DNA from: Clostridia bacterium
GTDB taxonomy: Bacteria; Bacillota; Clostridia; RUG12999
Assembly (NCBI GenBank): GCA_022801925.1
Contig: JAAWTG010000017.1
Location: forward strand, 1 to 49,655
Reading direction: 5' to 3'
DNA: 49,655 nucleotides
A program made the position numbers and the translations under genes. The first letter of the stretch is position 1. The number at the start of each line of letters is the position of its first letter. The notes under the pieces were generated by a model that made no database searches, was not told the DNA's origin, and saw only the letters and a program-made list of their open reading frames with translations. Below, one piece after another: positions 6,093 to 8,977 of this stretch.

Positions 6093-6120
6093 AAAAAAGC
6101 CCCTGTCATAAGGGGCTTTT
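6093..6120 (-). terminator. Terminator of the Cys/His-tail membrane protein
   Basis: Perfect AAAAGCCCCT/AGGGGCTTTT stem (6095-6104 with 6111-6120), 6-nt loop, T tract on the minus strand; 10 nt after the stop of the gene at 6131-6604. Confidence 0.88.
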
Positions 6121-6130
6121 GGTAAATCTA

Positions 6131-6604
6131 TTACTCTGCGCAGTGCGAACAGGGACGATATAGTTTTTTTGCTTCCGAGAGAGACAGTGCCGTTACTTCG
6201 CTCTTTCTGATGTGATAACAATTTCTGTCGTCATGATAACACTCTCCGTATTTTGCTACATAGACTGTTATCTCCTGTTTCACTTCCGCTTTAGGCGCTT
6301 CCTGTTTCCGAACAGGTTCTGCTGCTGATTCTTGTTTCATATTTTCTGTTACTGTCGGCTTTGTTTGCGTATGATTCTCTAACGGCGGTTCAGGAGATGG
6401 TGTATCTGTCGGCGCAGGTATCGCTTGCTCTGTTTCCACAGGCGCCGGCTGCTGCGTTATTTCCGGAAGCCGTGTTTCTACAATTTCTTTGATATCCTCC
6501 ACCTGTGATATCGCCACGCCGACTCCTATCACACTGCTAAGCGCAACGACAGCGCATATAATGGGTAAAACGAGAAATAAAATATTCTTTTGCTTCTGTG
6601 TCAT
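6131..6604 (-). CDS. Single-pass membrane protein with Pro/Glu-rich linker and C-terminal Cys/His motif
   Basis: 157-residue protein of unknown function. A short basic N-terminus, one membrane segment (about residues 8-32), a long low-complexity P/T/E/K-rich linker (about 50-110) and a compact C-terminal module: YVAKYGECYHDDRNCYHI, then LSLSEAKKLY, then PCSHCAE. The CYH...CYH...CxxC arrangement with 'SEA' between is a recurrent tail in Firmicute envelope proteins and may bind metal; that is inference. I moved the start to ATG 6604 because AAAGGGAGGGGAC lies just upstream, discarding 19 residues of the longest reading frame. A tail-outside topology is likely. Monocistronic, with its own terminator. 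Confidence 0.75.
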   Translation of the reverse strand: MTQKQKNILFLVLPIICAVVALSSVIGVGVAISQVEDIKEIVETRLPEITQQPAPVETEQAIPAPTDTPSPEPPLENHTQTKPTVTENMKQESAAEPVRKQEAPKAEVKQEITVYVAKYGECYHDDRNCYHIRKSEVTALSLSEAKKLYRPCSHCAE

Positions 6605-6740
6605 TTGGTTGTCCCCTCCCTTTATATGGTACCATATGATACTTTTTTGTTCACTTATCATATTCTATCTATATAGTCACAACCGAGACATTTTAAAACA
6701 CTCCTTTTTCCCCTAAAATCTTATATTTTTAGCTATACTA

Positions 6741-6755
6741 CATATACTGTATATG
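6741..6755. promoter_or_regulatory. Palindrome upstream of first XRE gene, candidate operator
   Basis: CATATACTGTATATG is an inverted repeat (CATATA/TATATG around CTG). A related ATATACTGTTGTAT lies at 6822-6835, between the -10 and the start of the XRE gene. Two similar sites flanking a promoter fit autorepression; this is inference. Confidence 0.4.
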
Positions 6756-6786
6756 AACTTATACTAGATAGTCTACTTTTATTGGG

Positions 6787-6815
6787 TTCCGCAAGGTAAA
6801 AAAAATAGGTATAAT
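6787..6815 (+). promoter_or_regulatory. Candidate promoter of first XRE gene
   Basis: TATAAT at 6810-6815 with a weak TTCCGC 17 bp upstream (6787-6792); the start codon follows 33 nt later. Confidence 0.5.
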
Positions 6816-6848
6816 ATGTAAATATACTGTTGTATGGTGGTGATACCT

Positions 6849-7175
6849 ATGCAAATTGATATTACATTCATCGGCAAACGCATTGCTCAAAAACGTAACC
6901 AGATGAAACTAACACAAAATGAACTTGCCGAGAAAACAAAGTTGACCCCTAAATTTATTTCGAGTATGGAAAATGCTCACTCTGCACCAAGTATCGACTC
7001 TTTGATAAAATTATGTGAAGTTTTAGATACAGACCCTAATTATATCCTCTTTGGAATTACAAAGGAAAAAGTTCTAAATCCCAAGATTAATACAATTATT
7101 GATTATCTATCTTTATGTACATCAGAACAATTGGAAAAAATTTTAGAATATGTAGAACTTTTGACCCGCAAGTAA
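6849..7175 (+). CDS. Small XRE-family helix-turn-helix regulator
   Basis: 108-residue DNA-binding protein. The HTH_3/Cro-CI domain spans about residues 8-65 (FIGKRIAQKRNQMKLTQNEL, then LTPKFISSMENAHSAPSIDS as recognition-helix region, ending DPNYILFGI). The C-terminal 40 residues (YLSLCTSEQLEKILEYVELL) form a short amphipathic helix often found in such regulators and may dimerise. GGTGGTGA supports ATG 6849 rather than the in-frame ATG 6834. It lies in AT-rich DNA unlike its neighbours, with two more XRE genes downstream, consistent with acquired DNA. Target unknown; the flanking palindromes suggest it represses itself. Confidence 0.88.
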   Translation: MQIDITFIGKRIAQKRNQMKLTQNELAEKTKLTPKFISSMENAHSAPSIDSLIKLCEVLDTDPNYILFGITKEKVLNPKINTIIDYLSLCTSEQLEKILEYVELLTRK

Positions 7176-7491
7176 TTTTTTTACTTATCTGCATATAAGA
7201 TATAATATTTTGAATTTGTTCCTTAAAAACTTTTTACCTTTATGATGTATCTGGTATGCTACATAAAACATCATTCACCCCTATGTTGCTTTTAATCAAT
7301 CATTTTAAAAACCTTTAACAAAATTTTTAAAATCTGTATCAGGCTACGTTATGTGGGCGAAATCTAATTCTAAATAGATTTTAAAAAAGTGACCTTTAGG
7401 GTGTTTTTTAATAATTATAACATCACTCCAATGTAATGTCAATAGTGATATAATAAATTTAAGTTTACATTAGAAGGTTAGGGGATGCAGA
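7176..7491. other. AT-rich intergenic region between XRE genes
   Basis: No gene seen. It holds a small stem (AAATCTA/TAGATTT, about 7359-7382), an extended -10 TGATATAAT (about 7447-7455) ahead of the second XRE gene, and AATGTAA/TTACATT arms (about 7430 and 7466) that flank that -10 and could be an operator. Confidence 0.4.
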
Positions 7492-7860
7492 ATGTTTGAT
7501 TTGGGTTTAATGCTAAAAGGGCTAAGAAAAGAAAACAATTATACTCAAAAACAAGTTGCCAAAAAATTAAATGTATCTGTTACCACAGTAGGACGCTGGG
7601 AGAGTAATTATAAACTTCCGTCAACTGAACACCTGATTGATTTATCCGTATTATATAATGTGCCGTTGAATTATTTAGTAGGTCGGGAGAAAAAAAAGGC
7701 AATCGTAATAGAGCATCTCACCAAAAATCAACAAGAATTGATTACAATGCTGGTTTTAGAATTTGAAAGCGCCCATGATAACAAGAGCAGAGAACTAACA
7801 CAACGGCAACAAACTATTATTAACTTAATATTTAAAGAATTTCATAATCAACATGACTGA
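7492..7860 (+). CDS. XRE-family helix-turn-helix regulator
   Basis: 122-residue regulator. An N-terminal Cro/CI-type HTH (residues about 5-62: LKGLRKENNYTQKQVAKKLN, VSVTTVGRWESNYKLPSTEH, VPLNYLVGR) is followed by about 60 residues predicted helical (LTKNQQELITMLVLEFESA...LTQRQQTIINLIFKEF) without a recognised domain. The GRWE/P-xxxxL pattern is typical of plasmid and phage-type repressors. The start follows TTAGGGGATG. It has its own hairpin terminator at about 7982-8030. It is not overlapped by other genes; the neighbouring XRE genes are not close paralogues by eye. Confidence 0.87.
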   Translation: MFDLGLMLKGLRKENNYTQKQVAKKLNVSVTTVGRWESNYKLPSTEHLIDLSVLYNVPLNYLVGREKKKAIVIEHLTKNQQELITMLVLEFESAHDNKSRELTQRQQTIINLIFKEFHNQHD

Positions 7861-7981
7861 AAACCTGGTTTGTACCGATAGACGAAAGCACAAAAATGGG
7901 TAATAAAACCGACGGATTTTTAAAGTTCCCAAATAGGGTATTGAACTACTTTCTAGTTTCAAATTTTAAAAAACAAAAATT

Positions 7982-8030
7982 TACCATGATACAACCATTT
8001 CATACAGTTGGCTATATCATGGTATTATTT
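7982..8030 (+). terminator. Hairpin with T-rich tail after second XRE gene
   Basis: TACCATGATA (7982-7991) pairs perfectly with TATCATGGTA (8015-8024); inner CAAC/GTTG also pair. TTATTTT follows. It probably terminates the second XRE transcript, though it sits 120 nt after the stop. Confidence 0.55.
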
Positions 8031-8117
8031 TATGCGTTGAAATAGCATATAACACAAATCCAGAGTTTCCGCGTTTTTTAGTACCACATAATGCTACCAT
8101 AAAGGTGAGGTGGTAAG

Positions 8118-8324
8118 ATGTATTTCAGACATATTAAAGAATTAAGAATAGATTCAGATAAAACACAACAAGAGCTTGCCGATTATTTACATTGTAATCG
8201 GCAGGTCTATGCCCGTTATGAAAATGGGATTCGTGAAATTCCCATTTCCATGGCGATAAAACTGGCGGATTATTATAACGTGAGTTTGGATTACTTGGTT
8301 GGACTTACGAATCGCAAGGAATGA
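8118..8324 (+). CDS. Minimal XRE-family helix-turn-helix regulator
   Basis: 68-residue protein that is almost only a Cro/CI HTH (IKELRIDSDKTQQELADYLH, RQVYARYENGIREIPI, MAIKLADYYNVSLDYLVGL). AAGGTGAGGTGG is a strong ribosome binding site just upstream. Such minimal HTH proteins are common as repressors in mobile islands or as antitoxin/phage-type switches. It lies 110 bp before the toxin-antitoxin-like locus, but no operon link is visible. Confidence 0.88.
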   Translation: MYFRHIKELRIDSDKTQQELADYLHCNRQVYARYENGIREIPISMAIKLADYYNVSLDYLVGLTNRKE

Positions 8325-8422
8325 TATTTACACAGGAGGATAAAGAATCGGTTGATAAAAAAATATAATATATATGTGTAGTAAAAGGCATAACAAGATA
8401 TCCGTGATTTTCTCTTATATAA

Positions 8423-8506
8423 AATGATTACTCTTGACAATCGCATTCATTTTGTGTATAATAAAATATAGAAAAGGCAAGACCTCAAACGGTTATGCCA
8501 AAACGT
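8423..8506 (+). repeat. Promoter/leader repeat, copy 1 (copy 2 at 8769-8850)
   Basis: A block of about 80 bp covering a consensus promoter and the hairpin GGCAAGACC...GGTTATGCC is nearly identical in two direct copies (8423-8506 and 8769-8850), differing at only a handful of positions. The copies diverge completely right after GCCAAAA. Confidence 0.9.
8434..8462 (+). promoter_or_regulatory. Consensus promoter of the plus-strand small RNA
   Basis: Perfect TTGACA (8434-8439), 17-bp spacer, perfect TATAAT (8457-8462). There is no ORF with a ribosome binding site downstream; a terminator follows within 90 bp. Confidence 0.88.
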
Positions 8507-8551
8507 TATTATTTTAAAATAACACGGCTTTGACGGGGCGTGTTATTTTTT
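8469..8551 (+). ncRNA. Putative antisense antitoxin RNA
   Basis: Predicted RNA of about 80 nt starting near 8469 and ending in the T run at 8545-8552. Its 5' half forms a hairpin (8476-8484 with 8491-8499: GGCAAGACC against GGTTATGCC). Its 3' half is the terminator stem 8516-8526/8539-8549 and is fully complementary to the 3' end of the convergent peptide mRNA. The peptide mRNA leader carries the same hairpin elements (GGTAAGAC and GGTTATGCC), so arms could be exchanged between the two RNAs. This fits an antisense regulator of a type I toxin, like the convergent RNA I/RNA II pair of the Enterococcus par locus. Function is inferred; promoter, hairpins and overlap are seen directly. Confidence 0.65.
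8516..8549. terminator. Shared terminator of the convergent RNA pair
   Basis: 11-bp perfect stem AAAATAACACG/CGTGTTATTTT (8516-8526 with 8539-8549), 12-nt loop. Strong T run on the plus strand; weaker T-rich end on the minus strand. It overlaps the stop codon of the 22-residue ORF. Confidence 0.8.
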
Positions 8552-8611
8552 TATGGAAATTACCAAAAGTAATAGAATTATCATAAACAATATTATGTAT
8601 TCCTTATCCAT
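8543..8611 (-). CDS. 22-residue hydrophobic peptide, putative type I toxin
   Basis: A tiny ORF that standard gene callers miss. The peptide begins MDKEY, continues with about 15 almost uninterrupted I/L/V/F/M residues (IILFMIILLLLVISI) and ends KK: a charged N-terminus, one membrane span and a basic tail, as in Fst-, TxpA- and BsrG-type toxins. The ATG is preceded by AAAGGGGGTGAT with 5-nt spacing, a near-ideal ribosome binding site. The mRNA would start near 8683 from a perfect consensus promoter, giving a leader of about 70 nt, and end in the terminator shared with the opposing small RNA. Length 22 residues fits the small end of Fst-family toxins, but I see no specific sequence match. Toxicity is inferred. 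Confidence 0.7.
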   Translation of the reverse strand: MDKEYIILFMIILLLLVISIKK

Positions 8612-8689
8612 AAGCTATCACCCCCTTTCCCGGAGATGATGGCATAACCGCCCAGCTTTTACACCGTTTTCAGTCTTACCTTAGAATAT

Positions 8690-8718
8690 ATTATATCCGA
8701 ACTTTAAATCCATGTCAA
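8690..8718 (-). promoter_or_regulatory. Consensus promoter of the toxin-like mRNA
   Basis: Minus strand: TTGACA (8718-8713), 17-bp spacer, TATAAT (8695-8690), both hexamers perfect. It is followed by GGTAAGAC, AAAACGGT and GGTTATGCC, the same landmarks as in the opposing RNA. Confidence 0.88.
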
Positions 8719-8779
8719 GATATATACCAAAAAATATTTATACCTTCATTCCTTTCTATTTTTATATAAAATCATAGTC

Positions 8780-8808
8780 TTGACAGTCACATTCATTTTG
8801 TGTATAAT
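8780..8808 (+). promoter_or_regulatory. Consensus promoter of the orphan antitoxin-like RNA
   Basis: Perfect TTGACA (8780-8785), 17-bp spacer, TATAAT (8803-8808), nearly identical to the promoter at 8434-8462. Confidence 0.87.
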
Positions 8809-8814
8809 AGAATA

Positions 8815-8903
8815 TAGAAAAAGGCAAGACCTCAAACGGTTATGCCAAAATCGGGTTTTGTAAGATAGCCCTAACTTTGGTCGGTGGGGGCTATCTTACT
8901 TTT
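8815..8903 (+). ncRNA. Orphan second copy of the antitoxin-like RNA
   Basis: Same promoter, 5' end and GGCAAGACC...GGTTATGCC hairpin (8823-8846) as the RNA at 8469-8551, but a different 3' half. A 12-bp perfect terminator stem GTAAGATAGCCC/GGGCTATCTTAC (8860-8871 with 8888-8899) is followed by TTTTA. The opposite strand shows no hydrophobic ORF with a ribosome binding site: frames there stop after 5-8 codons. It may be an orphan antitoxin, a decoy, or a relic whose toxin was lost. Confidence 0.6.
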
Positions 8904-8934
8904 ATCGCAAGTGTCATCAAAAAATATCAATCAT

Positions 8935-8974
8935 AAAAAATCAGCATATCGCAAATGCGATATGCTGATTTTTT
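8935..8974. terminator. Bidirectional terminator after the HAD gene
   Basis: 19-bp perfect inverted repeat (8935-8953 with 8956-8974; core TCAGCATATCGCA) with A6/T6 ends, directly after the HAD gene stop on the minus strand. Confidence 0.92.
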
Positions 8975-8977
8975 ATA

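Follow-up and report, generated by a model that had tools for sequence, protein, structure and literature searches.

A probable orphan antitoxin RNA gene beside an intact type I toxin-antitoxin cassette in a Clostridia bacterium

The par system of pAD1 (Fst, with RNA I and RNA II) combines the mRNA of a short hydrophobic toxin with a convergent small RNA, the two genes sharing a bidirectional terminator, and has a second interacting region near the 5′ ends as well as a 5′ stem-loop which hides the Shine-Dalgarno sequence (PMC7472228). Pairing of the two RNAs begins at the terminator loops and then extends to the 5′ repeats (PMC7472228). In E. coli, the zor/orz system is organized in tandem type I cassettes from which the toxin can be lost while the antitoxin RNA gene persists: it is common for strains to have the orz antitoxin and lack the zor toxin, and in MG1655 one such orphan, OrzP, is expressed (PMC11264685). 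The dinQ locus consists of one membrane peptide gene and two near-identical antisense RNA genes, agrA and agrB, both partly complementary to dinQ (PMC3567139). C. difficile carries convergent Clostridia type I modules, among them CD0956.2-RCd10 and CD2517.1-RCd8, several of which lie on prophages (PMC6563280).

The window analyzed here is a stretch of 49,655 nts from a Clostridia bacterium (GCA_022801925.1, contig JAAWTG010000017.1), in which two antitoxin-like RNA units lie in tandem (Table 1). Convergent genes, a shared bidirectional terminator and a short hydrophobic peptide are found as in par, and in 43 of 43 toxin leaders the Shine-Dalgarno sequence is predicted to be paired within a 5′ stem-loop (a prediction made without a shuffle control). 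In contrast to par, the peptides lack the PXXXG motif and have no Fst match in Pfam, NCBIfam or PHROGs, and the two RNAs share 5′ segments of one sequence in place of plain direct repeats; the repeats that can be read by eye on the + strand, GGCAAGACC/GGCATAACC and GGTTATGCC/GTCTTACC, are imperfect. A par-like U-turn motif was present in 2 of 74 toxin terminator loops. By analogy, the mechanism of the cassette may resemble that of par/Fst, but with peptides that are not Fst-like.

The apparent loss of a toxin from tandem cassettes recalls the orz-only strains, although the sequences are unrelated, the remnant is 27-29 nts of the toxin 5′ UTR in E. coli and the toxin 3′ end here, and a shared bidirectional terminator is not described there (PMC11264685). 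Given this precedent, the orphan-antitoxin phenomenon is already known, whereas the cassette family, as judged from the libraries and papers searched, apparently is not. The arrangement of dinQ, a single peptide gene accompanied by a near-identical pair of antisense RNA genes, is also similar, with the difference that the second RNA here appears to belong to another toxin subtype. The toxins of the C. difficile modules differ in having 34-53 aa and lysine-rich tails, and no family relation to them was found in Pfam, NCBIfam or Rfam.

Two antitoxin RNA units and the cassette of toxin A

The near-identical repeat of about 80 bp, comprising a promoter and a 24-nt hairpin, on which the preliminary description was built is real: positions 8762-8850 (copy 2) and 8415-8503 (copy 1), both on the + strand, are 92% identical, share the 32-mer AAAAGGCAAGACCTCAAACGGTTATGCCAAAA with no mismatch and diverge after the hairpin. 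The promoters of both copies match the consensus hexamers fully, with a spacer of 17 nts, and both RNAs are predicted to fold well below shuffled sequences (z ~ -5). In the window the hairpin has exactly two occurrences, and 100 shuffles, searched with up to 3 mismatches allowed, gave none. The full copies are two, not three as had been described; the sole candidate for a third is CGGTTATGCC, a 10-nt arm in the leader of the peptide mRNA (minus strand, within 8635-8650).

Judged from its sequence, the region 8415-8740 is an intact convergent type I toxin-antitoxin cassette with a putative toxin A. A short hydrophobic ORF with its own promoter and Shine-Dalgarno sequence lies at 8543-8611 and has 49 related peptides, and the antisense RNA gene is complementary to its mRNA through the shared terminator. 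The copy 1 terminator is symmetrical enough to be used on both strands, and the stop codon of the toxin A ORF sits within its stem. Two arms, GGYAAGAC and CGGTTATGCC, are common to antitoxin and toxin leader, which allows the 5′ ends to exchange partners; consistently, the model of the toxin leader also matches antitoxins, at about 15-20 bits. Covariation in the hairpin helix is weak (1 double change), because the hairpin hardly varies.

Table 1. Features of the two units, with positions in the window
Feature	Position	Strand	Basis
Antitoxin RNA copy 1, promoter TTGACA-17-TATAAT	8434..8462	+	12/12 consensus
Antitoxin RNA copy 1, constant 5′ hairpin GGCAAGACCTCAAACGGTTATGCC	8476..8499	+	family model R1, 58.5 bits
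Bidirectional terminator common to antitoxin 1 and toxin A mRNA, AAAATAACACG / CGTGTTATTTT	8516..8549		layout repeated in tens of loci
Toxin-A-like peptide ORF MDKEYIILFMIILLLLVISIKK, 22 aa, hydrophobic	8543..8611	-	peptides of 21-24 aa, near-identical, in the equivalent position of other cassettes
Toxin A mRNA leader, arm GGTAAGAC, arm CGGTTATGCC, predicted Shine-Dalgarno-burying hairpin	8609..8682	-	model R2, 93 bits
Toxin A mRNA promoter TTGACA-17-TATAAT (third perfect promoter)	8690..8718	-	12/12 consensus
Putative orphan antitoxin RNA (copy 2), promoter	8780..8808	+	12/12 consensus; both hexamers the same in the sister species
Putative orphan antitoxin RNA (copy 2), constant 5′ hairpin	8823..8846	+	identical to copy 1; R1, 66.3 bits
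Orphan terminator, that of the toxin-B cassettes (bidirectional), GTAAGATAGCCCT / GGGGCTATCTTAC	8860..8899		matches toxin B gene ends
Putative toxin B remnant, FLMTLAIKVR and stop (last ten codons)	8891..8923	-	alignment and translation against G000:C92 and G001:C112

The second unit and the remnant of toxin B

Downstream of its hairpin, copy 2 continues into a terminator of the form GTAAGATAGCCCT-14 nt-GGGGCTATCTTAC, with a stem of 13 bp rather than the 12 bp first reported. The same terminator ends three genes of toxin subtype B: one lies at the end of contig C92, which belongs to this genome, and two are part of a tandem array that the sister species carries on contig C112. Hence it is neither swapped, as first described, nor foreign, and belongs to the toxin-B type of cassette. 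Positions 8858-8923 are 89% identical over 66 nts to the toxin B gene end on C92 (G000:C92), and C112 (G001:C112) also matches. In all three toxin B copies on C92 and C112, the last codons (...TLTIKVR*) overlap the terminator. The homology to both contigs breaks off at 8923, the start codon, leader and promoter of the toxin being deleted, while on a larger scale 8416-8923 is collinear with two tandem cassettes of C112 (79% over 520 nts).

The toxin-B terminator, the FLMTLAIKVR* tail and the end of homology at 8923 together argue that a second type I cassette (8762-8923) once followed the first head-to-tail, that copy 2 is its antitoxin gene and that its toxin B was deleted, a reading to which a probability of about 0.88 is given. 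The deletion, running from the middle of the ORF outward, took the promoter and leader of toxin B together with its start and first codons, and left the antitoxin promoter, the hairpin, the terminator and the last ten toxin codons. As in the orz-only type of orphan, promoter and terminator are intact, the toxin is lost and a remnant of it is present. The same orphan with the same breakpoint is found in the sister species, so that the deletion predates the split of the two species. The earlier suggestion of a lost second toxin is thus strongly supported, the terminator and C-terminal codons being homologous to those of intact genes. The accompanying statement that no hydrophobic ORF faces copy 2 is correct for the locus as it stands today but overlooked the last ten codons and stop that remain on the minus strand. 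It is hardly credible that a mobile promoter-hairpin repeat without any relation to a toxin landed beside a different terminator: high identity within the window is indeed confined to promoter and hairpin, but copy 2 joins its terminator and toxin tail just as intact B cassettes do, and elsewhere the hairpins are almost always inside cassettes.

From 8924 onward, the + strand is the flank of a HAD-family phosphatase gene with a 21-bp palindromic terminator; the palindrome (8933-8976) is perfect, immediately follows the HAD gene and is terminator-like on the minus strand. The sister species has about 39 nts copied from the 3′ end of the HAD gene immediately upstream of copy 1 (L016:1454-1492), which places HAD fragments on both flanks of the array. 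The DNA at 6097-8420 differs from the upstream flank of the sister species and contains three HTH (Xre-type) regulator genes. Because contig C92 ends at the toxin B cassette of this genome, any antitoxin of its own would fall beyond the assembled sequence. Another decayed antitoxin promoter, without hairpin, is located upstream of the C92 toxin B gene (L010:1920-1990).

Predicted pairing and persistence of the orphan

Pairing was evaluated as predicted cofold gain, in energies that take no account of proteins or kinetics. Cognate pairs reached -36.7 kcal/mol (antitoxin 1 with toxin A) and -34.6 kcal/mol (copy 2 with the C92 toxin B), versus -2.9 kcal/mol for copy 2 with toxin A and -0.7 kcal/mol for antitoxin 1 with toxin B. 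Nearly all the predicted pairing energy of copy 2 comes from its terminator. Over 74 cassettes, the predicted gain of the 3′ region averaged -61.0 kcal/mol for cognate and -9.3 kcal/mol for non-cognate pairs, figures that are larger than those of the locus because the spacer was included and taken as complementary. The terminator is hence predicted to set the pairing specificity of the antitoxin RNA. The proposed recognition site of cognate RNAs would be the shared terminator region, in which they are perfectly complementary, and the constant 5′ hairpin, whose arms are those of the toxin leader, could pair with that leader too. Pairing at terminator and hairpin would then block translation of an mRNA whose Shine-Dalgarno sequence already sits in a hairpin. 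Selection for orthogonal terminators within genomes is not supported: non-cognate pairs are no more distinct within than between genomes, and 1655 of 2000 label permutations lay at or below the observed fraction.

From the conservation of exactly promoter and hairpin, the preliminary description suggested, as one of two alternatives, that the function resides in the hairpin and that the RNA can act in trans on the mRNA of the neighboring peptide. Such a double antitoxin, similar to agrA/agrB-dinQ, is improbable here. The hairpins of the two copies are identical, the toxin leader has arms able to pair with them, and agrA and agrB of E. coli both reduce dinQ mRNA (PMC3567139). However, the terminator and not the hairpin carries the predicted pairing, toxin A already has its cognate antitoxin in the same cassette, and the difference between -34.6 kcal/mol with toxin B and -2.9 kcal/mol with toxin A disfavors action of the whole RNA on the neighbor. 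When the interaction proposed for the hairpin and the peptide mRNA leader was computed, the hairpin alone gained -0.7 kcal/mol on the toxin A mRNA, and the best hairpin-leader duplex beat shuffles modestly, 14 of 200 reaching the same level. In the preferred reading of a deleted toxin B, the orphan probably makes an RNA of about 90 nts which matches a toxin-B mRNA from elsewhere in the genome and not the adjacent toxin A mRNA.

Two explanations accept this lost-toxin origin and differ only in why the orphan persists. In the favored one, a toxin can be lost without harm as long as its antitoxin stays, so that loss of the toxin comes first and drift of the orphan follows. In a draw of genomes, 8 antitoxins at 76 sites were without a facing toxin (6 independent events), versus 2 clear toxins without an antitoxin (L271 and L278), an excess which agrees with the logic that the toxin must go first, the numbers being small. 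With the contig collection added, 12 orphan antitoxin sites were counted, 10 of them independent and in an end state like that of copy 2, in support of the lost-toxin origin, and about one tenth of the antitoxin genes of the family are orphans. Several retain a toxin tail (L211:668, L085, L205, L221 and L232); the closest parallel to copy 2 is L211:668, which has the tail and stands in tandem with an intact cassette having another terminator. A second orphan shared by the two species (G000:C18 / G001:C93) is decaying, with a hairpin mismatch, a duplication of the -10 region and a damaged terminator; the duplication is a tandem one of 14 nts (L009:170-260).

What speaks against drift is copy 2 itself, in which the functional sites are almost unchanged between two species: of 75 such sites, comprising the promoter hexamers, the hairpin and the terminator, 1 differs, versus 12 of 78 other sites (p = 0.002), and the single hairpin change in the sister species preserves a G.U pair. 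Free decay in relatives, named beforehand as evidence against a function, is seen for the C18/C93 orphan and not for copy 2 in the sister species. Accordingly, selection might retain copy 2 as a guard: its RNA would silence, in trans, mRNAs of the toxin-B type made by paralogous cassettes or brought in by phages, and losing such cassettes would then be harmless. Cassettes are present on phage contigs, and 4 orphans have a matching toxin elsewhere in their genome, with predicted gains of -35 to -70 kcal/mol. Retention is nevertheless unlikely: orphans as a group match the other toxins of their own genome no better than paired antitoxins do (p = 0.16), the constraint comes from a comparison of two genomes only and could be mimicked by gene conversion with sister cassettes, and the C18/C93 orphan is in decay. 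Copy 2 is thus more probably a neutral or near-neutral relic, likely still making its RNA. That the orphans of the family are kept in general as trans-acting guards, each combining the constant 5′ module with a type-specific terminator that neutralizes one toxin subtype, is a speculative extension and quite doubtful. If it were true, genomes could shed matching cassettes, or phages bring them in, harmlessly, and the antisense system would be modular, with the terminators as the exchangeable part that confers specificity.

A cassette family of uncultured Clostridia

The layout at copy 1, an antitoxin RNA convergent with the mRNA of a 21-24 aa hydrophobic peptide across one shared bidirectional terminator, recurs widely. 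A pattern with 20 fixed bases found 68 stretches in a bacterial genome collection, all from uncultured Clostridia, Oscillospiraceae or Ruminococcus assemblies and many with gut-sample names, and 4 viral contigs. Nearly all of the 76 distinct pattern sites face a peptide of this kind across a shared terminator. Conservation extends to positions that the pattern did not fix, which argues that it is not merely an artefact of the search. The peptides fall into three main kinds, MDNEYIISFMIILLLLVISIKK, MEYVYIMIYIITLIVLIITIKK and MGKYILRIIFLTIVFLITLTKKVR, with relatives. Of the models, which were trained on the cassette family itself, a covariance model of the hairpin gave 77 sites, spread over 32 of the 391 Clostridia genomes sampled, and a model of the toxin leader gave matches in 35 genomes; these genomes are mostly draft metagenome assemblies, and since cassettes often lie at contig ends the copy numbers are minimum estimates.

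Divergent members (L268-L274, L280 and L281), many of them in G289, keep the layout with hairpin arms altered in both RNAs, for example GGCAAAGCC in place of GGCAAGACC, still able to pair with GGTTATGCC. The array of the sister species (G001:C112:7336-8358; L039, L239) consists of three tandem cassettes, A, B and B, and is apparently located upstream of lepA, like G002:C201 (L034). In L063, L096, L108 and L112, the toxin frame passes its usual stop, reads through the terminator and gains a tail, IKNNA... in the first three, where the A-tract before the stop is shorter, and IKKVTASL... in L112.

Two viral contigs that were examined (L111:13395 and L112:3201) are genuine phage, with cassettes in the tail region beside tape-measure and baseplate genes. 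The exact toxin-leader pattern was not found in viral contigs, and annotated phages and plasmids gave no matches to the cassette. The family has no match in Rfam, Pfam, NCBIfam or PHROGs, Rfam returning sub-threshold matches only (including BsrG, at 17.7 bits versus a cut-off of 55), and the hairpin sequence was not found in the literature. Within the libraries and papers searched, this is hence a large and apparently undescribed family of uncultured gut Clostridia and their phages.

What appeared as an odd repeat would thus be an evolutionary snapshot, in which a toxin gene was lost and its antitoxin kept, with the same breakpoint in two species. Copy 2 leads to a multi-copy type I toxin-antitoxin family of uncultured gut Clostridia that is also found on phages. 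Because its 5′ hairpin is constant while the terminator varies, the family lends itself naturally to testing which part of an antisense RNA determines its target.
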